Positions 36,979-44,535 of a stretch of DNA of 64,000 bases are shown piece by piece. The position numbers and the translations under genes were made by a program. Below the pieces are notes generated by a model that saw only the letters and a program-made list of their open reading frames with translations, was not told the origin of the DNA and made no database searches. Within the stretch, counting starts at the first letter, position 1, and each line of letters starts with the position of its first letter. The stretch spans positions 62,001-126,000 of the forward strand of contig JADGNZ010000004.1 of the NCBI GenBank assembly GCA_017883205.1, written 5' to 3'. This stretch comes from Thermoanaerobaculia bacterium (GTDB lineage Bacteria > Acidobacteriota > Thermoanaerobaculia > Gp7-AA8).

Positions 36979-38298
36979 CTAGCTACCCGGCTTCTTGAAC
37001 GCAGGGTTGCTGGGAATGGACCGAATTTCCTCCCTTAGAACTTGAGGAAGAGCAGCGTCGCTCTGCCAGAAAAGGAGCCAGTCCGACACTCGCGGATCAG
37101 TACGTTGGAACGAAGCCAGAGACCATCCTGCGATCTGGTAAGCCAGTCCGCGGGCAACGCGAGGATTGAGACCCGGGACGCCGCCTTTGGTCTTGACCCA
37201 ATGCTGATATGCGTCAAAGTCGGCAGAGCCGTTCAAGAGCCCCACAAGCGCAAGAACGTAACTCGGATCTCCGGTCGCCTCCCAACTTCCCCAGCATTGA
37301 TCCATAGCCACTCCAATGGCCGCCACCCGACGTGGATCAACAGGGTCAGTGAAGGGGACAAAGATTCTCGGATCTGGGAGTGGCTGCGCCTTCAGTAGCG
37401 AGCCCTTCGCGTCTTCGGGCAGATCTCCCATCATGGTCGAAATATCCTCTCCGCTCATGCGAAGCACCATCAGTAGCGCCCACTGACAAAGGGGGTCCAG
37501 AGATGGGAGTGCTTTGACCGCCTCTTGTCTCGCGGCCAGGTTTTCCCGAAAGGCGGCTGCAAAGAAGGCATAGACGGCGACGTTCTTCAGTGAGCTCGTA
37601 CGAGCCGCGGTTTTGAGCATGGGCAAGAGCCGCCCCGGTTGCGGCGATTCGTGGAATCCATTCATCTCGTTCGACAGCTCTGCCTGATCGGCCTCCGGAT
37701 CTCGCTGCCACTCAGCCCATGGGCGCACCGTCAGAGTGATTGGTTTCAGTGCCGGTAGGGGCGCGGTGCCGCCCGAAACGGTTGCAGTGATGTGGATCTG
37801 TTCCGAGGCGCTGCCTGTCGGGGCCTTCCAGTCGGTCTCAAACACGGCGAAGGAGACTATCGATGTGGCCCTTTCGATGGCAGCCTTGTCCTGTTTCTTT
37901 ACGTTCCCGGCGTCCAGCGCCATCATGACCATGTCGTATCCGGATGCCTTGATTGTCCTGATGGACACCGGCTTCAACTCCCGCTCTTCCGAGACGCCGG
38001 TACTGCTTGCAATCCTAAGGGTCATGCGAAGGCCGTCGAGCAATTGCTCGCGGTTGTTTCCGTCGGCAACGAGTGCGATGGCGAATCCTTGTCCTGGTGA
38101 CAAAGCCTCCACCTGACCTGGAGCATTGACACTTCCTTGCGGCGGGATTCGGCCCGCCCAACCGTGGGGAACCAGCAACAGCTCATCCCTGATCTTCGCG
38201 GGTTGCTCCGTCGAGGCGACCGGCGGTGCCTGCGCGGCAAGATGCATTGAGAGCGAGAGAAGGGCCAGATGAAACCAAGCAAGACGCCGTATCCGCAT
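36979..38298 (-). CDS. Exported hypothetical protein, 439 residues
   Basis: A signal peptide (FHLALLSLSMHLAAQAPPV) leads into a soluble protein with two apparent parts: beta-rich up to about residue 200 (FAIALVADGNNREQLLDGLRM, IHITATVSGGTAPLPAL) and helical later (LKNVAVYAFFAAAFRENLAARQEAVKAL, YQHWVKTKGG). No catalytic motif or repeat is recognised. The stop lies 56 bases from the EEP gene start, so co-transcription is possible. Confidence 0.6.
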   Translation of the reverse strand: MRIRRLAWFHLALLSLSMHLAAQAPPVASTEQPAKIRDELLLVPHGWAGRIPPQGSVNAPGQVEALSPGQGFAIALVADGNNREQLLDGLRMTLRIASSTGVSEERELKPVSIRTIKASGYDMVMMALDAGNVKKQDKAAIERATSIVSFAVFETDWKAPTGSASEQIHITATVSGGTAPLPALKPITLTVRPWAEWQRDPEADQAELSNEMNGFHESPQPGRLLPMLKTAARTSSLKNVAVYAFFAAAFRENLAARQEAVKALPSLDPLCQWALLMVLRMSGEDISTMMGDLPEDAKGSLLKAQPLPDPRIFVPFTDPVDPRRVAAIGVAMDQCWGSWEATGDPSYVLALVGLLNGSADFDAYQHWVKTKGGVPGLNPRVARGLAYQIAGWSLASFQRTDPRVSDWLLFWQSDAALPQVLREEIRSIPSNPAFKKPGS

Positions 38299-38338
38299 GC
38301 TGGATGGTAGACCACTTGAATTGTTTCCATCTCCCTTC

Positions 38339-39397
38339 TCACGCCACCGCCCTCGACATCTCCCGCACCAGCGGAATCACCTGTTCCCCGAAACGCTCCA
38401 TCTCCTCGTACTGCGGGCTGAACTGGAGCAGGACCAGGTCGATGCCGCTCCGCTCCAGGGCCACGAGGCGTGCGGCGATCTCCTCCGGGCTTCCGATCAG
38501 GTTCGTGCGCAGGCCGCGGTTCGACACCGAGTAATCCTGGATCGACACCTGCTGATCCAGCTTCGTGCCCGAGAGCCATTGCTCGTAGTTGGCGTTGCCG
38601 GCGGCGCTGGCGTGCACGTTGGTGATTCGCTCCACCTCCCGCCTCGCCTCGTCGGCGCGATCGCGGCAGACGACAAAACCGGCCACGCCGAAGGTCAGCC
38701 GTTTCGCGCCGGGCGCGAGCTTCGCGCGGCGCGCGTTCATGTCGGCGATCTTCGGCGCGAGGTTTTCCGGAGGGTCCCCATGCATCACGTACGCGTCCGC
38801 TTCGCGGGCGATGAGATCCTTCGCCGCGGCCGATTCTCCACCCGCGTAGATTGGCGGAAGCGACTTGCGCAGCGGCTTCGGCTCGACGATGGCGTCGTTC
38901 ACGCGATACAGCCGGCCGTCGTAGGAGAACCGCTTTTCCTGCCACAGCCCCTTCACCACCGCCAGCCACTCCTCGGTGCGCCGATAGCGATCGTCATGCT
39001 CATCGAACGGCACGCCGTACTGAAGCGACTCGTCGCGCCACCACGACGAGACCACGTTCAGCGCCAGGCGGCCACCCGAGATGTGATCGATGTTCGAGGC
39101 CTGCTTGGCGAAGAGCGCGGGCGGATGAAACGTCGGCCGCACCGCCACCATCAGCTCGAGCGTCCGCGTTGCGGCGGCCAGCGCCGCGGCCGTCGACCAC
39201 GCATCGAGGCTCGGCGCTTCCACGCCTTTGATGTCATTGAGATTCAGCTCCGCGAGCAGCGAGAGATCGAATCCCAGCTCCTCGCTGCGCACGGCCAGAC
39301 GCCGCACGTAATCCCAACTGGCCTCCATCCGCTCGTCCTCCACGTTGCGCAGCCAGCCACCGAACATCGGCATCCAGTATCCGAAGCGGAGTGTCAT
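38339..39397 (-). CDS. LLM-class flavin-dependent monooxygenase (SsuD/SfnG-like)
   Basis: 352 residues, the length usual for the bacterial luciferase-like (LLM) group. RFGYWMPMFGGWLRNVEDERM, SEELGFDLSLLAELN, FHPPALFAKQASNIDHISGGRLALNVVSSWW, and IYAGGESAAAKDLIAREADAYVMHGD are typical of enzymes that use reduced FMN to cleave C-S bonds in sulfones and sulfonates. LVREMSRAV ends the protein. The reaction would release sulfite for cysteine synthesis. The gene starts four bases inside the preceding ATP-grasp gene (ATGA). A Cys-rich leader and terminator precede the pair, supporting a role in sulfur supply. The exact substrate is unknown. Confidence 0.85.
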   Translation of the reverse strand: MTLRFGYWMPMFGGWLRNVEDERMEASWDYVRRLAVRSEELGFDLSLLAELNLNDIKGVEAPSLDAWSTAAALAAATRTLELMVAVRPTFHPPALFAKQASNIDHISGGRLALNVVSSWWRDESLQYGVPFDEHDDRYRRTEEWLAVVKGLWQEKRFSYDGRLYRVNDAIVEPKPLRKSLPPIYAGGESAAAKDLIAREADAYVMHGDPPENLAPKIADMNARRAKLAPGAKRLTFGVAGFVVCRDRADEARREVERITNVHASAAGNANYEQWLSGTKLDQQVSIQDYSVSNRGLRTNLIGSPEEIAARLVALERSGIDLVLLQFSPQYEEMERFGEQVIPLVREMSRAVA

Positions 39398-40371
39398 GAC
39401 ACCCTCCGCTGGCGCCGGGCCTGAAGGCGCTCTTCGATGGAATCGACGACGCGCGCAGTGGGATCGAAGCCGATGACACGCAGCGGATCGGCCACGAAGT
39501 TCGACAAGGCGTTGATGTCGTAGAAGTAGCGTCGGCCATCGCGTGCGCTCTCCAAGTACTCGATGCCGCCGACGTCCAGCCGCGAGCGCAGCGCGATGTT
39601 CTCCACCACATCGATCACCTCGGCCGGCGGCGTGAAGGCCTCGACGCTCAGTCCCTTCTTGCGGCTGTCGGCCGGGCAGGCGCTGCTGGTGAGCGCGGCT
39701 CCATCGGTGGTCTTGCAAACGTCAGCGGGGCAGAGATCGAATCCTCCATCGTCGCCGAGGTGAATGCGAATGCCGTAGAGGTAGGCGCCGTCGAGCGTCT
39801 CCACGCGCGTGATGACGCCATCGCGCGGCGCGTGGTACTCCTGCAGCAACAGCAGTCCATCGCCGCCGCGGTCGATCGATCCCGACGCGACGGCCTCCAG
39901 CAGCTCTTCGCGCGTTTGCAGGAGCCGCACGCCAGCGCCGCTGCCACCGACATTCGGCTTGACGAGGAGCGGGTATTCGAGCCGTTCGCCGGCCGCCTCC
40001 AGTCCGGCCGGCGTCGTCACTTCCGTGCGCGGCGTCGTCACGCCGATGCGCTGCAGAAACGCGCCTTGGGCCGCCTTGCTGATCTCCAGCTCGAAGATGG
40101 CCGAGCCGTTGATTACATCGGCGCCACTCAGCTCCAGTTGCCGCGTCCATCCGAGGGTCTGGAAGATGAGCGCGCCGCGAGCGCGGGTCCAGGCGGAAGG
40201 GCTGATGCGGTTGAAGACGACGTCGTCCGGTCCGTAGCCGTCCGGATCGAACGCCTGGGACGCCGCATCGACGCGTTGATGCGGGATCCCGCGCCGCTCC
40301 AGCTCCTCGAACAACGGATTGAACCAGTGGGGATGCTCGTAAAGAATGGTGAGGCTTTTCGACCGTGACAT
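39394..40371 (-). CDS. ATP-grasp family ligase, first gene of a putative sulfur operon
   Basis: 325 residues. FNRISPSAW, then ISKAAQGAFLQRIGVTTPRTE, EYPLLVKPNVGGSGAGVRLL, LLLQEYHAPRDGVITRVETLDGAY and GGIEYLESARDGRRYFYDINALSNF are in the order of an ATP-grasp fold: phosphate-binding loop, and a D-x-N-type metal site near the end. Such enzymes join a carboxylate to an amine or thiol by way of an acyl phosphate. Substrates are unknown. AAGGAGAG precedes the ATG. Together with the LLM gene it lies after a leader peptide and an intrinsic terminator. Confidence 0.8.
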   Translation of the reverse strand: MSRSKSLTILYEHPHWFNPLFEELERRGIPHQRVDAASQAFDPDGYGPDDVVFNRISPSAWTRARGALIFQTLGWTRQLELSGADVINGSAIFELEISKAAQGAFLQRIGVTTPRTEVTTPAGLEAAGERLEYPLLVKPNVGGSGAGVRLLQTREELLEAVASGSIDRGGDGLLLLQEYHAPRDGVITRVETLDGAYLYGIRIHLGDDGGFDLCPADVCKTTDGAALTSSACPADSRKKGLSVEAFTPPAEVIDVVENIALRSRLDVGGIEYLESARDGRRYFYDINALSNFVADPLRVIGFDPTARVVDSIEERLQARRQRRVS

Positions 40372-40418
40372 CGCGCTCTCCTTTGCGTCCGCGGCCGGCC
40401 GGTAGGAGCGAGAGGTCG

Positions 40419-40457
40419 AAAAAGAAAAACCCCGCGACGAACAGGCCGTGCGGGGTT
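40419..40457 (-). terminator. Rho-independent terminator in the leader of the ATP-grasp operon
   Basis: Read on the minus strand, AACCCCGC and GCGGGGTT form an eight-pair stem around a 14-base loop, followed by TTTTTCTTTTT. It stands 31 bases past the stop of a leader peptide and about 50 bases before the ATP-grasp start, so it would cut transcription before the operon. Leader bases TGCGGG...TTGG (in the Cys-rich ORF) can pair with CCAA.CCCCGCA, the terminator's 5' arm, giving a mutually exclusive antiterminator. Confidence 0.8.
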
Positions 40458-40487
40458 GGTGGTTGATGAAGTGAGTCGTCTAAATGG

Positions 40488-40538
40488 TCAGGACGCCAAG
40501 CCTCTCCCGCATGTCGTGAGACAGCAACACATCGACAT
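40488..40538 (-). CDS. Cysteine-rich leader peptide (putative attenuator)
   Basis: Sixteen codons reading MSMCCCLTTCGRGLAS and a TGA stop, with three consecutive Cys codons and a fourth further on. It is too short to be a usual protein and has no obvious family. Its place, between a good sigma-70-like promoter and an intrinsic terminator, is that of a regulatory leader peptide. When charged tRNA-Cys is scarce, a ribosome stalled on the TGT-TGC-TGT run would free the antiterminator pairing. I infer regulation by cysteine supply. There is no visible strong ribosome-binding site, although GTCCC..CGCG precedes the ATG. Confidence 0.6.
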   Translation of the reverse strand: MSMCCCLTTCGRGLAS

Positions 40539-40568
40539 CGCGAGGGACTGGTGCGTCATTGGCGAGGC

Positions 40569-40598
40569 GTTATACGCGCACGCTGATGGCGTTGTCAA
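40569..40598 (-). promoter_or_regulatory. Sigma-70-like promoter of the ATP-grasp/LLM operon
   Basis: On the minus strand TTGACA (40598-40593) and TATAAC (40574-40569) are 18 bases apart, close to the bacterial consensus. Transcription would begin near 40562, about 25 bases before the leader ATG. Confidence 0.7.
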
Positions 40599-40681
40599 AT
40601 GTTGGGAGACGAGGTGGGCGATGCGTGTCGACGCTGTACGAGGAGCATTCAAGGCCGCCGCTTGGAGACGTGGCGCTCACC

Positions 40682-40757
40682 CTCACGCGAAGACGCGAAG
40701 GCACGAAGGGTTTAGGTTGCGATGCTCTCCTTCGCGGTCTTCGCGCCTTCGCGTGAG
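40682..40757. repeat. Inverted repeat, CTCACGCGAAG..CGCGAAGG type
   Basis: The two arms (CTCACGCGAAGACGCGAAGG and the reverse complement ending TTCGCGTGAG) differ at a few bases. Tandem GCGAAG words inside them may slip. Such elements occur scattered in related genomes. It lies between the leader region and a convergent-looking gene end and could end transcription. Confidence 0.6.
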
Positions 40758-40773
40758 AAATCCGCTCAACGCA

Positions 40774-41079
40774 TCATTTTGGCGCGACCCGCCGAAGTTC
40801 CACCCGGTACGCGAGCTCACCGAAGCTGTCGTACGACTTGGCTCGCAACTCGACGTTCTCCCCATCGACGACGATCACACGTTTGCGTCTCGTAATGGCC
40901 GAAAGCTCTTTCCGAAGTGCGGTCGACCAGGGAAGGCTGGCGATGCTGAAGCCGCTGCCACCCTTGAGCGCAAAGATGTGGTCTTCGCCCTCGTCGTATT
41001 CGACTTCCAGCTCGTCGGCGCCGAGGCGGACTGCCTCCGCGGCAAAGAATTCAAGGATGCTCTCTCGTTCCTCAGGCAT
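40774..41079 (-). CDS. Hypothetical protein, 101 residues
   Basis: A GGAGGACACC just upstream supports the ATG at 41079. The sequence shows alternating helix and strand (ILEFFAAEAVRLGADELEVEYDEG, RKRVIVVDGENVELRAKSYDSFG, ELAYRVELRRV), like a small alpha/beta domain. No family, signal peptide or membrane segment is recognised. It is monocistronic as far as seen. Confidence 0.6.
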   Translation of the reverse strand: MPEERESILEFFAAEAVRLGADELEVEYDEGEDHIFALKGGSGFSIASLPWSTALRKELSAITRRKRVIVVDGENVELRAKSYDSFGELAYRVELRRVAPK

Positions 41080-41112
41080 CGGTGTCCTCCATCGACGTGT
41101 TCATAACAAAAG

Positions 41113-41189
41113 CATGAACCACAGAGACACAGAGGTCACAGAGTTGCCATTCAATCATCTCTGTGATCTCTGTGTCTCTGTGGTTCATG
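41113..41189. repeat. CCACAGAGACACAGAG-type inverted repeat
   Basis: CATGAACCACAGAGACACAG pairs with its reverse complement at the other end (CTGTGTCTCTGTGGTTCATG). A close relative lies at 48762-48820. This kind of palindrome is widespread in many metagenomic genomes and probably acts as a REP-like element or bidirectional terminator. It separates two genes transcribed in the same direction. Confidence 0.75.
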
Positions 41190-41193
41190 TTTC

Positions 41194-41745
41194 CTATCCT
41201 CCGCCGCCCGCCCGTCGAGCCCGGAGCCGGCGCTCCAGATCCTCATCAGATCGCTGCTTGGCCTCGGGATACCGTTCCAGGAACTCCTGCAGCACGACGG
41301 CCCGCGCGATCATCTCCTCGGGGAGGCTCTTGCGAATCCAGACGGTGTCCGGATCGAGAAGGTAGGAAAGGAACTCGTCGCACTTCTCCACCGAGTGATA
41401 GGCGGCCTGATAAAAGGCGCCCTTCTTTCGCTCGAGAATTCGTCCGAAGACCCGCGAGCAGATGCCGTAGGGCGCCTGAATGAGAAGGAACTCTTCGAGC
41501 GCCATGTTCGGCATCTTGCTGATGTTCTGCCGCTCGATGGCCCCCTGGAAGAAGCGCCGGAGGATGGTCAGGTGGATCTTGGGAGGATTGTTCGCCGTCC
41601 ACGTGGAGACGATCTCCTGGAGAAAACGCTGGACGCTCTCGATGGCAGACCGATCGGGATAGATCAGCTCCCGAAAGCCGTGCTTGCGCGCGATCGACCG
41701 CTCATCGAACGCCGCCTCCCCGCTCGTCTCGTCCTGTTGGGCCAC
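41194..41745 (-). CDS. Hypothetical protein, 183 residues
   Basis: A mostly helical protein (IESVQRFLQEIVSTWTANNPPKIHLTILRRFFQGAIERQN, KCDEFLSYLLDPDTVWIRKSLPEEMIARAVVLQEFLERYPEAK) with an acidic, Gly-rich C-terminus. No known domain. It lies about 100 bases from the acyl-CoA synthetase end. Confidence 0.6.
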   Translation of the reverse strand: MAQQDETSGEAAFDERSIARKHGFRELIYPDRSAIESVQRFLQEIVSTWTANNPPKIHLTILRRFFQGAIERQNISKMPNMALEEFLLIQAPYGICSRVFGRILERKKGAFYQAAYHSVEKCDEFLSYLLDPDTVWIRKSLPEEMIARAVVLQEFLERYPEAKQRSDEDLERRLRARRAGGGG

Positions 41746-41844
41746 GAAGCGCGCTCCTCCTTTGCTGATGGTTATACATCACGATGTCGTTGACAGCGGA
41801 GACTCGCTTGATTCGAAAGCGGGCGGGACGCCCGCGGTCCCAGG

Positions 41845-44535
41845 TTAGTACGCGATTCTTCGCGATGGGGGCGCCGGAACCAAGCGCTCTACTCGCACGC
41901 GGGCGTCGAGCGCGATGGCTCCTTTTTCGAGGACCTTGAGCGGGTTGATGTCGAGCTCCTGGATTTCGGGGCAGATACTTATCAATGCTGAGAGGCGCAT
42001 GATCGCTTGGCGAAGGGCGGGGACATCGCTTGGCGGGGCGCCGCGGACGCCGGCCAGCATCTTTGCGCAGCGCAGTTCGTTGATCATGTCCTCGGCGTCG
42101 TTTGGGGTGAGGGGGTGGATGCGGAAGGCGACGTCCGCCAGGACTTCGACCAGCGTGCCGCCGGCGCCGAAGGCGAGGACGTGGCCGAAGCTGGGATCGT
42201 TGGTGGCGCCGAGCATGACTTCGACGCCGCCGGTCACCATCGGCTGTACGAACGCGGCTTCCATGTCGTCGCCGAGGAGGGTCTTCATTTCGAGGAAGGC
42301 CTCTTGTGCCTCGCACTCGTTTTTCAGCGACAGCTTGACGCCGCCGCGATCGCTCTTGTGAAGGAGTTTGGGACCGATTGCTTTGAGTGCTACCGGTTTG
42401 CCGATTCGCACTGCCGCTTCGAATGCTTGCTCGCCGTCGGACACGAACTCGCCGCCTGCTGTCTCGATACCCGAGGCGCGAAGAAGTTGTTCGATTTCGT
42501 TCGGGTCGAGCCAGCCTCCGCCGCGCTCCAGCGCGCTGTTCACAATGGACCGGAGCGCTAACGCGTCGAGGTTCAGCTCAGCGGCTTCCTCTTCCGGGCG
42601 GCGGCGCCATTCGGCGTAGCCAACCGCTCTTGCCAGCGCGCCGACTGCGCGTTCCGGAAATGGGAACGCAGGAACCGGCTCGAGCGACGGAGGAACGCCG
42701 TGCGCGCTCATGAACGTCGCCAGAATCGTCTTGCCGGCGGCGCGCGTGGCGGTTTCGCGAATGGCCGCGGCGACGTCGGGCGCCTGCGTCGGCACGACAG
42801 GGATGTAGATCACGAGCACGTTGTCGATCGACGGATCGGCGAGCAGCGCTTCGAGCGACTTCTTGTAGTGCTCCGGCGATGCGGACGCGATCATGTCGAC
42901 AGGATTGCCGACGCTGGCTGCGGCGGGAAGGAACGAGCGCAGTTTCGTCACTGTCGATTCCGCCAGCGGCGGCAGAGTCAGCCCGCGCGCTTCGCAGGCG
43001 TCAGCAGCGAGGATGCCGGGGCCGCCGGCGTTCGTGAGGATGCCCACGCGGCGGCCGCGCGGCAGCGGCTGATTGGCGAGGAGCGAGGCAACATCGAACA
43101 GCTCTTCGAGCGTATCGGTGCGGATCACGCCGGCCTGGCGAAGCAGATCGGCGACGATGGCATCGCTCGACGCCAGCGCGCCCGTGTGCGATGCCGCGGC
43201 GCGCGCCCCCGAGGCGGAACGGCCGGATTTTACGAGCACGATCGGCTTGGTTTTTCCGACTCGGCGCGCGATCTCCGCAAACTTCCGCGGATTCCCGAAG
43301 CTCTCGAGATAGAGGAGGATCACGTCGGTCCGTGGATCCTCGGCCCAGTATTGAATGAGGTCGTTGCCCGAGACGTCGGCCTTGTTGCCGACGGAGAGGA
43401 ACGTCGAGAAACCGATGTTCAGCGATCGCGCGTAGTCGAGAATGGCCACGCCCAACGCGCCGCTCTGGCTCGACATCGCCACGTTGCCTGCCGGCGGATA
43501 GACCGCCGCAAACGTGCCGTGCATCCGAATGGCGGGGTCGGTGTTGATGATGCCCATGCAGTTCGGGCCGACCATGCGCATTCCGGCGGCGCGCACCTTG
43601 TCGAGGAGGAGGCGCTCTGCCTCGCGGCCCGCCGGGCCCGTCTCGCCGAAGCCGGCTGTGATGACGACGGCGCCGCGCACGGACTTCTCCACGCAATCGT
43701 CGATGACGTGCTCCACCTCGGCGGCCGGCACGACGATGATGGCCAGATCGACGACGCCCTCGATGTCGCGCAACGATGGATAGGCGCGCACGCCTTCGAT
43801 CTCAGTCGCGCTCGGATTTACGACGTAGAGGTCGCCCGTAAAGCCCGATCGCCGCAGGTTCGAAACGATCTCGTGTCCGAGCTGGCCGGGCTTTCGTCCC
43901 GCGCCAACGACAGCGATGGAGCGCGGCTCGAAGACTGCCTTCATCGACTGATGTGCGGCGTTCTGCGCGCGGCCGGCGGCGAAGGCGACTGAGTTTGCAG
44001 TTGGCTCGATGGCGAAGGAAACGTGCGTCGTGCCGCGATCGGTGTTTCGCGTGACGACGTATCCCGACTGAAGAAAGACGTCGAGCATCCTGGCGTTCTC
44101 GTCGAGCACCTCGGCTTCGAAGCGCTCGATGTGATTCATCCTCGCCGCGATTGCCAGTTTTTCCAGGAGAAGAGTCCCGATCCCGAATCCCTGCTGGTCA
44201 TCCGCGATCGCAAACGCAACCTCGGCAATCCGAGGATGTTGCGGGGAAGAGTAGTAGTGGGCGACGGCGACGATCCTGTCACCCACTTCGCCAACCACGC
44301 CAAATTCATGAACGTAATCGACCTGCGACGGAGCGTAGATCAGCGCCTGATCCGCGGTGCAGACGGCAAAGAATCGCGCGTGCAGCGTCTCGGGCGACAA
44401 CGTGGAAAAGAACGCCCGCATCTGTTCGTGATCGTCCACGCGGACCGGCCGGATGCGCAACGTACGGCCGTTACGCAGAACGACGTCGGCTTCGAGGTGC
44501 GCAGGATAGGTGACTTCAGGTTCAGCGATAGTCAT
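41845..44535 (-). CDS. GNAT acetyltransferase fused to ADP-forming acyl-CoA synthetase
   Basis: 896 residues. Residues ~15-175 are a GNAT domain (RPVRVDDHEQMRAFF, EVAFAIADDQQGFGIGTLLLEKL). Then a CoA-binding Rossmann part (PRSIAVVGAGRKPGQLG, GVVDLAIIVVPAAEVE), a succinyl-CoA ligase-like part with the phosphohistidine-type segment (AAASHTGALASSDA) and a C-terminal ATP-grasp part (KPVALKAIGPKLLHKSDRGGV, MVTGGVEVMLGATNDP, ELDINPLKVL). It can make acetyl-CoA with ATP, or run in reverse to make ATP, and it may acetylate proteins. In the well-known Pat enzymes the GNAT domain is at the C-terminus; here it is at the N-terminus. A perfect GTGA-N6-TCAC lies about 60 bases upstream. Confidence 0.92.
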   Translation of the reverse strand: MTIAEPEVTYPAHLEADVVLRNGRTLRIRPVRVDDHEQMRAFFSTLSPETLHARFFAVCTADQALIYAPSQVDYVHEFGVVGEVGDRIVAVAHYYSSPQHPRIAEVAFAIADDQQGFGIGTLLLEKLAIAARMNHIERFEAEVLDENARMLDVFLQSGYVVTRNTDRGTTHVSFAIEPTANSVAFAAGRAQNAAHQSMKAVFEPRSIAVVGAGRKPGQLGHEIVSNLRRSGFTGDLYVVNPSATEIEGVRAYPSLRDIEGVVDLAIIVVPAAEVEHVIDDCVEKSVRGAVVITAGFGETGPAGREAERLLLDKVRAAGMRMVGPNCMGIINTDPAIRMHGTFAAVYPPAGNVAMSSQSGALGVAILDYARSLNIGFSTFLSVGNKADVSGNDLIQYWAEDPRTDVILLYLESFGNPRKFAEIARRVGKTKPIVLVKSGRSASGARAAASHTGALASSDAIVADLLRQAGVIRTDTLEELFDVASLLANQPLPRGRRVGILTNAGGPGILAADACEARGLTLPPLAESTVTKLRSFLPAAASVGNPVDMIASASPEHYKKSLEALLADPSIDNVLVIYIPVVPTQAPDVAAAIRETATRAAGKTILATFMSAHGVPPSLEPVPAFPFPERAVGALARAVGYAEWRRRPEEEAAELNLDALALRSIVNSALERGGGWLDPNEIEQLLRASGIETAGGEFVSDGEQAFEAAVRIGKPVALKAIGPKLLHKSDRGGVKLSLKNECEAQEAFLEMKTLLGDDMEAAFVQPMVTGGVEVMLGATNDPSFGHVLAFGAGGTLVEVLADVAFRIHPLTPNDAEDMINELRCAKMLAGVRGAPPSDVPALRQAIMRLSALISICPEIQELDINPLKVLEKGAIALDARVRVERLVPAPPSRRIAY

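Follow-up and report, generated by a model that had tools for sequence, protein, structure and literature searches.

Probable cysteine-sensing attenuators precede an ATP-grasp/LLM operon and sulfur operons in Acidobacteriota

Short, leaderless ORFs rich in cysteine codons were reportedly described in mycobacteria by Canestrari et al. in 2020. According to two reports, such leaderless poly-Cys ORFs lie before mycobacterial sulfur and cysteine operons and respond to cysteine (PMC9031893, PMC13236596), and the cys leaders of Mycobacterium carry no terminators (PMC1262725). Among the Rhodobacterales, the uORFC-8-2 motif before cysS joins a tandem-Cys short ORF to an intrinsic terminator, and attenuation governed by Cys-tRNA has been proposed (PMC8632094). 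On the enzymatic side, flavin monooxygenases of S-alkylcysteine salvage (CmoO/CmoJ, YxeK) and the enzymes SfnG, SsuD, and MsuD cleave C–S bonds and so recover sulfur or cysteine (PMC10863075, PMC8234197). Our literature search, incomplete in its coverage, found no cysteine leader in Acidobacteriota. Here, we describe one from a soil bacterium of that phylum, in a 64,000-nucleotide stretch of DNA that we call the window.

The element lies on the minus strand of the window, 5' of a gene pair encoding an ATP-grasp protein and an LLM-class monooxygenase. Its promoter, to which an earlier note on this DNA had drawn attention, is present at 40598–40569. Specifically, a −35 element, TTGACA (40593–40598, 6/6 consensus bases, with TTGAC(A/G/C) kept in most homologous leaders), is followed after an 18-nt spacer by a −10 element, TATAAC (40569–40574), for a total of 11/12 consensus bases. 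The automated promoter scan did not call TTGACA-18-TATAAC; the pair was seen by direct reading and by anchored comparison. Downstream, a short Cys-codon ORF, MSMCCCLTTCGRGLAS, ends at 40488. The earlier note had counted 16 codons (40538–40488), and that frame stands as part of a longer one: the first in-frame ATG lies at 40559, 9 nt past the −10 element, so the leader ORF is probably near-leaderless and 23 codons in length, encoding MTHQSLAMSMCCCLTTCGRGLAS before its stop codon (40488–40559, minus strand). A run of three regulatory codons, TGT TGC TGT (40521–40529), is followed by a fourth cysteine codon (40511–40509), which is overlapped by segment 2, the antiterminator core TGCGGG (40506–40511). 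The paired stretch of segment 2 begins 16 nt past the first cysteine codon of the run and is complementary to CCCGCA in the 5' arm of an intrinsic terminator hairpin, AACCCCGCACGGCCTGTTCGTCGCGGGGTT (40428–40457, minus strand, −17.2 kcal/mol), the 5' arm of which is segment 3 and the 3' arm segment 4. After the hairpin comes a T-run, TTTCTTTTT (40419–40427), whose end is 47 nt from the ATP-grasp ATG (40371), much as the earlier note had placed a GC-rich stem and T-run about 50 bases before that gene. A terminator-like site from the automated scan (40445–40431) falls within the same hairpin.

The surroundings hold further structure. An Rfam search of window positions 38000–42000 returned no family at gathering score; its only matches, below threshold and microRNA-like, fall at 41110–41192, where a near-perfect palindrome, probably an intergenic palindromic repeat, matches on both strands. 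A second intergenic palindromic repeat, CTCACGCGAAGGCGCGAAGACCGCGAAGG ... CCTTCGCGTCTTCGCGTGAG, lies at 40680–40750 on the minus strand, just 5' of the leader promoter.

Unmasked, the window leader folds into a 1:2 hairpin plus the terminator, and the fold of this single leader is unremarkable (z −1.7). Because the window terminator exceeds the antiterminator in stability, switching would have to be kinetic, taking place as transcription proceeds. Promoter, codons, terminator, locus-specific pairing, conservation, and downstream genes, all of them read from sequence, make it very probable, in our view, that the element is a ribosome-mediated transcription attenuator sensing charged tRNA-Cys. 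The notion is that RNA polymerase starts a few bases from the leader start codon, and that a ribosome then translates the 23-codon peptide with its Cys-Cys-Cys run and fourth cysteine. When Cys-tRNA is ample, the ribosome would translate across segment 2; hairpin 1:2 and terminator 3:4 would then form, and transcription would end short of the ATP-grasp gene. Under a shortage of Cys-tRNA, the ribosome would instead stall on the cysteine run, leaving segment 2 free just ahead; segment 2 could then pair with segment 3, no terminator would form, and the ATP-grasp/LLM operon would be read. With equal confidence, we propose that the same device sits on many Acidobacteriota sulfur-assimilation operons, metY leaders mixing in, or using only, methionine codons.

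The start of translation so close to the promoter appears to be general. With the start codons of some leaders set by rule or inspection, a −35/−10 pair matching the consensus at 8 or more of 12 positions lies ahead of 88% of 33 leaders versus 3% of control positions, and the distance from the pair to the start codon is 5–10 nt in 64% of leaders versus 0.6% of controls. Likewise, an in-frame start codon stands 5–12 nt past the −10 element in 86% of 63 further loci. Transcription usually starts 6–8 nt after the −10 element. Thus, the leader ORFs would begin at or beside the first transcribed base, and we infer that they are near-leaderless.

Protein searches with the ATP-grasp sequence yielded orthologues mostly from the same phylum. 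A Cys-codon leader and terminator precede the gene in 12 of the 13 distinct loci at ≥50% identity, L046 being the exception. By comparison, a short ORF with three cysteines in five codons occurs in 2% of random 250-nt windows from the fetched loci, a figure that overestimates chance because the sample includes true leaders. Many distant orthologues have no leader, among them most of those in families f22 and f66, Myxococcales, and Planctomycetota, and there the regulation would have been lost or replaced. The expectation that homologous loci carry the leader thus holds for close relatives and fails for many distant ones. At several f22 loci without a Cys leader (L053, L055, L057–L061, L063), an imperfect palindrome, TTCATCTAAACTTGAGATATYAGATTCG, lies approximately 80–130 nt 5' of ATP-grasp; it is possibly a protein operator in place of the attenuator. 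Short ORFs 5' of ATP-grasp at L065 and L104 end in RCICR or CRCICP, a differing layout in which the cysteine codons abut the stop and the hairpin follows directly. No relatives were found in the viral contigs searched, and the leader peptides matched no NCBIfam family.

The core of the proposed switch, the pairing of segment 2 with the terminator, can be followed across loci. A GC-rich hairpin and T-run follow 31 of the 33 leaders tested, with tens of nucleotides usually separating the terminator from the downstream start codon. In those 31 leaders, the median distance from the first regulatory codon to the start of segment 2 is 22 nt, and that from the end of segment 2 to the stop codon is 19 nt. 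Unlike in the textbook trp case, a ribosome halted at the stop would therefore cover segment 2 only in part, and it may be the 1:2 hairpin that brings about termination in rich medium. Segment 2 pairs better with the 5' arm of its own terminator than with those of other loci, by a mean of −2.7 kcal/mol (31 loci; sd 0.42, p ~1e-5, both by permutation of double-centred energies from which row and column effects had been removed, with the codon cluster set by rule or inspection), and the preference is repeated in the 63 further loci (p 5e-5); since the loci are related, these p-values are optimistic. The tests bear out the earlier claim that the antiterminator and terminator structures exclude each other. 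Terminators of the types CCCGC, CCGCTC, GCCCGG, and GACGCCT each come with a matching segment 2. With the leader masked up to 13 nt beyond its first regulatory codon, 30 of 31 loci give the antiterminator fold in the pre-terminator transcript. The earlier note had asked for a check of covariation in both competing stems: the antiterminator pairing is locus-specific, but the terminator-only stem shows little covariation within the CCCGC group. Because that stem hardly varies, its pair counts are uninformative, and the cross-locus pairing test was used instead.

Analogous elements precede sulfur genes elsewhere. Nine leaders, all from ATP-grasp loci, went into covariance model R1, with which 392 genomes of the phylum were scanned. 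In genomes with no ATP-grasp orthologue, R1 found full elements before metY at six loci (L118–L122, L127; the L119 product scores 688 bits against TIGR01326, cut-off 495). R1 also found two cysH leaders, one (L124) in genome G390, which carries an ATP-grasp copy as well and whose CysH protein, read from L148, is confirmed by NF002537, and one (L128) where the next gene appears, by eye, to be sulfate adenylyltransferase-like. Inspection added a leader before cysH (L149) and another before metY (L160). The metY leaders mix methionine with cysteine codons, and that of L121 has methionine only (MTNATLPTMAMIMRMSMRKLW), which fits codon-specific sensing. At L120 and L121, methionine codons dominate in an unchanged terminator architecture, as if another amino acid were sensed. 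A match to the terminator part of R1 only, at L125 (G041), precedes what by eye is an ArgE-like deacetylase gene and is perhaps an attenuator for yet another amino acid.

Model R2, built from seven leaders of another class, hit more than 100 sites at E≤1e-3, spread over 80 of that class's 193 genomes; a negative control of 28 genomes not belonging to the class had none at E<1e-3. In the window genome, R1 and R2 together returned the window copy and no other. All 63 R2 loci examined have a Cys-codon leader, a richness that is partly selected because both models include cysteine codons; the identity of the downstream gene is not so selected. The first gene could be labelled in 62 of the 63, by scanning representatives against NCBIfam and Pfam and running tblastn to those representatives. 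It belongs to a sulfur pathway or is PF03601 (YeiH-like) in 46 loci and encodes a TlpA-like redoxin in 13, the YeiH and redoxin labels falling under NCBIfam cut-offs and over Pfam cut-offs. By gene, the loci comprise siroheme synthase (24), TlpA-like redoxin (13), YeiH-like PF03601 (6), TauE/SafE (6), CysH (4), SUMT (3), outer-membrane receptor (2), and one each of CysKM, CysD, SsuA, OprP-like porin, and the unlabelled gene. A secreted-looking protein of approximately 410 aa, with an unassigned N-terminal part and a TlpA-like redoxin part, recurs directly behind the Cys attenuator (L178, L181, L184, L189, L190, L203–L205, L213, L214, L217, L222, L224), and in G510 its gene stands between the attenuator and ATP-grasp.

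A tRNA-Cys gene is part of two ATP-grasp operons. Specifically, in genomes G506 and G509, a tRNA-Cys(GCA) gene lies between the terminator of the Cys attenuator and ATP-grasp (L095:2506–2581, minus strand; L100:1382–1457, plus strand). It is the sole tRNA-Cys-like BLAST match in each genome, a search that a diverged second gene could escape. Remnants of the same tRNA-Cys occur at L098 and perhaps at L056.

Other mechanisms deserve weighing. Leaders that are near-leaderless and poly-Cys, like the leaderless poly-Cys ORFs of mycobacteria (PMC9031893), could act by translational attenuation, in which the stalled ribosome alters access to a downstream ribosome-binding site or couples translation. 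The near-constant hairpin and T-run, and a start codon that usually lies well beyond them, 47 nt in the case of the window, argue that this mechanism is improbable. We give very little credence to a metal, redox, or thiol sensor, in which the cysteine-rich peptide would bind a metal or oxidant and halt the ribosome, as copper-responsive leader ORFs do. The leader peptides share codons, not sequence; methionine replaces cysteine in metY leaders such as MTNATLPTMAMIMRMSMRKLW; and the targets are chiefly cysteine, methionine, and sulfur genes, including tRNA-Cys, even if Cys-x-Cys and Cys-Cys motifs and TlpA-like redoxin targets would suit such a sensor. That a random short ORF merely happens to stand before an ordinary terminator is scarcely conceivable: while the modest z-score of the single leader, and the approximately one terminator-like site expected in the scanned 2 kb, are compatible with chance, all of the elements are kept in many families and in gene contexts independent of one another, and R1 and R2 find matches elsewhere. 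Attenuation of transcription by charged tRNA-Cys thus remains our reading, and the question becomes what the window operon does.

The ATP-grasp ligase-like gene (325 aa; 39394–40371, minus strand) and the LLM-class (bacterial luciferase-like) flavin monooxygenase gene (352 aa; 38339–39397, minus strand; PF00296, 212 bits) overlap by stop and start in ATGA (39397–39394), so the two very likely form one operon. The predicted ATP-grasp structure (pLDDT 82) has a fold nearest LysX/ArgX and RimK, with ArgX/LysX/RimK as the best Foldseek matches at 15–20% identity and NCBIfam scores far under the cut-offs; nine aligned ATP-grasp sequences have an invariant LCPADxC motif in common. The earlier note had the LLM enzyme feed cysteine through sulfite liberated from sulfones or sulfonates. 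A desulfonation operon of that kind, under a genuine attenuator, would be in keeping with an LLM protein nearest SfnG and SsuD, and with the SsuA, TauE, and siroheme genes that carry the same attenuator elsewhere. We nonetheless find it unlikely. The LLM protein scores under both the SfnG and SsuD cut-offs (TIGR04021 SfnG, 265.9 bits versus 382.95), and the window genome, which is 99.7% complete, holds no PF01507 (CysH/CysD) and no PF01077 (siroheme sulfite/nitrite reductase) protein, so released sulfite would be without its usual onward route. PF01077 is likewise absent from most other ATP-grasp genomes tested. Of the cysteine attenuation of a sulfur operon first envisaged, the leader, terminator, antiterminator, and sulfur genes at other loci are retained, and the sulfite-releasing role is put aside where this genome is concerned. 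The cysteine link of the window operon itself is one of association. We would cautiously suggest that the likelier task of the gene pair is to recover reduced sulfur or cysteine, with an organosulfur compound as the source. We conjecture, by analogy with CmoJ and YxeK, that an LLM enzyme releasing the thiol of an S-alkylated compound would fit better than sulfite release, and that the ATP-grasp protein, in parallel with LysX, might protect an amino group.

These findings point to a large, phylum-wide network of cysteine-controlled genes in Acidobacteriota that appears not to have been described. More tentatively, and with somewhat less than even confidence, we speculate that much of the sulfur, cysteine, and methionine regulon of the phylum, tRNA-Cys included, is under parallel near-leaderless poly-Cys (or Cys/Met) terminator switches with no protein regulator, and that, in members that reduce neither sulfate nor sulfite, an undescribed pathway of cysteine salvage by ATP-grasp and LLM proteins is under the same control. 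With this element, both the signal (Cys/Met-tRNA) and the mechanism would be well defined, and the regulon, seen in many families, would be controlled by repeated RNA switches. It also ties uncharacterised genes, encoding ATP-grasp, LLM, TlpA-like redoxin, and PF03601 transporter proteins, to cysteine supply, making their functions testable.

Among known systems, the flavin monooxygenases CmoO/CmoJ, YxeK, and SfnG/SsuD/MsuD, which likewise serve sulfur or cysteine recovery, provide a possible lead for the LLM gene; the available portions of the sources mention no ATP-grasp partner for them. With the trp, his, and ilv attenuators, the acidobacterial element shares a leader peptide bearing regulatory codons and the 1:2, 2:3, and 3:4 segments. 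It departs from them in its cysteine (and methionine) codons, its near-leaderless start, and a segment 2 that lies mostly 5' of the stop codon. The uORFC-8-2 motif, likened here by description, also places an intrinsic terminator after a short ORF with tandem cysteine codons, for a proposed ribosome-mediated attenuation. However, it concerns a single gene, cysS, of a single order of Alphaproteobacteria, whereas the acidobacterial ORFs are near-leaderless and stand before many operons. Finally, mycobacterial leaders similarly put a leaderless poly-Cys ORF ahead of sulfur and cysteine operons, but they have no conserved terminators and are described as translational, whereas in Acidobacteriota the terminator/antiterminator switch is conserved. 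Thus, two features previously described apart, the leaderless poly-Cys ORFs of mycobacteria and the terminator switch, are here combined.
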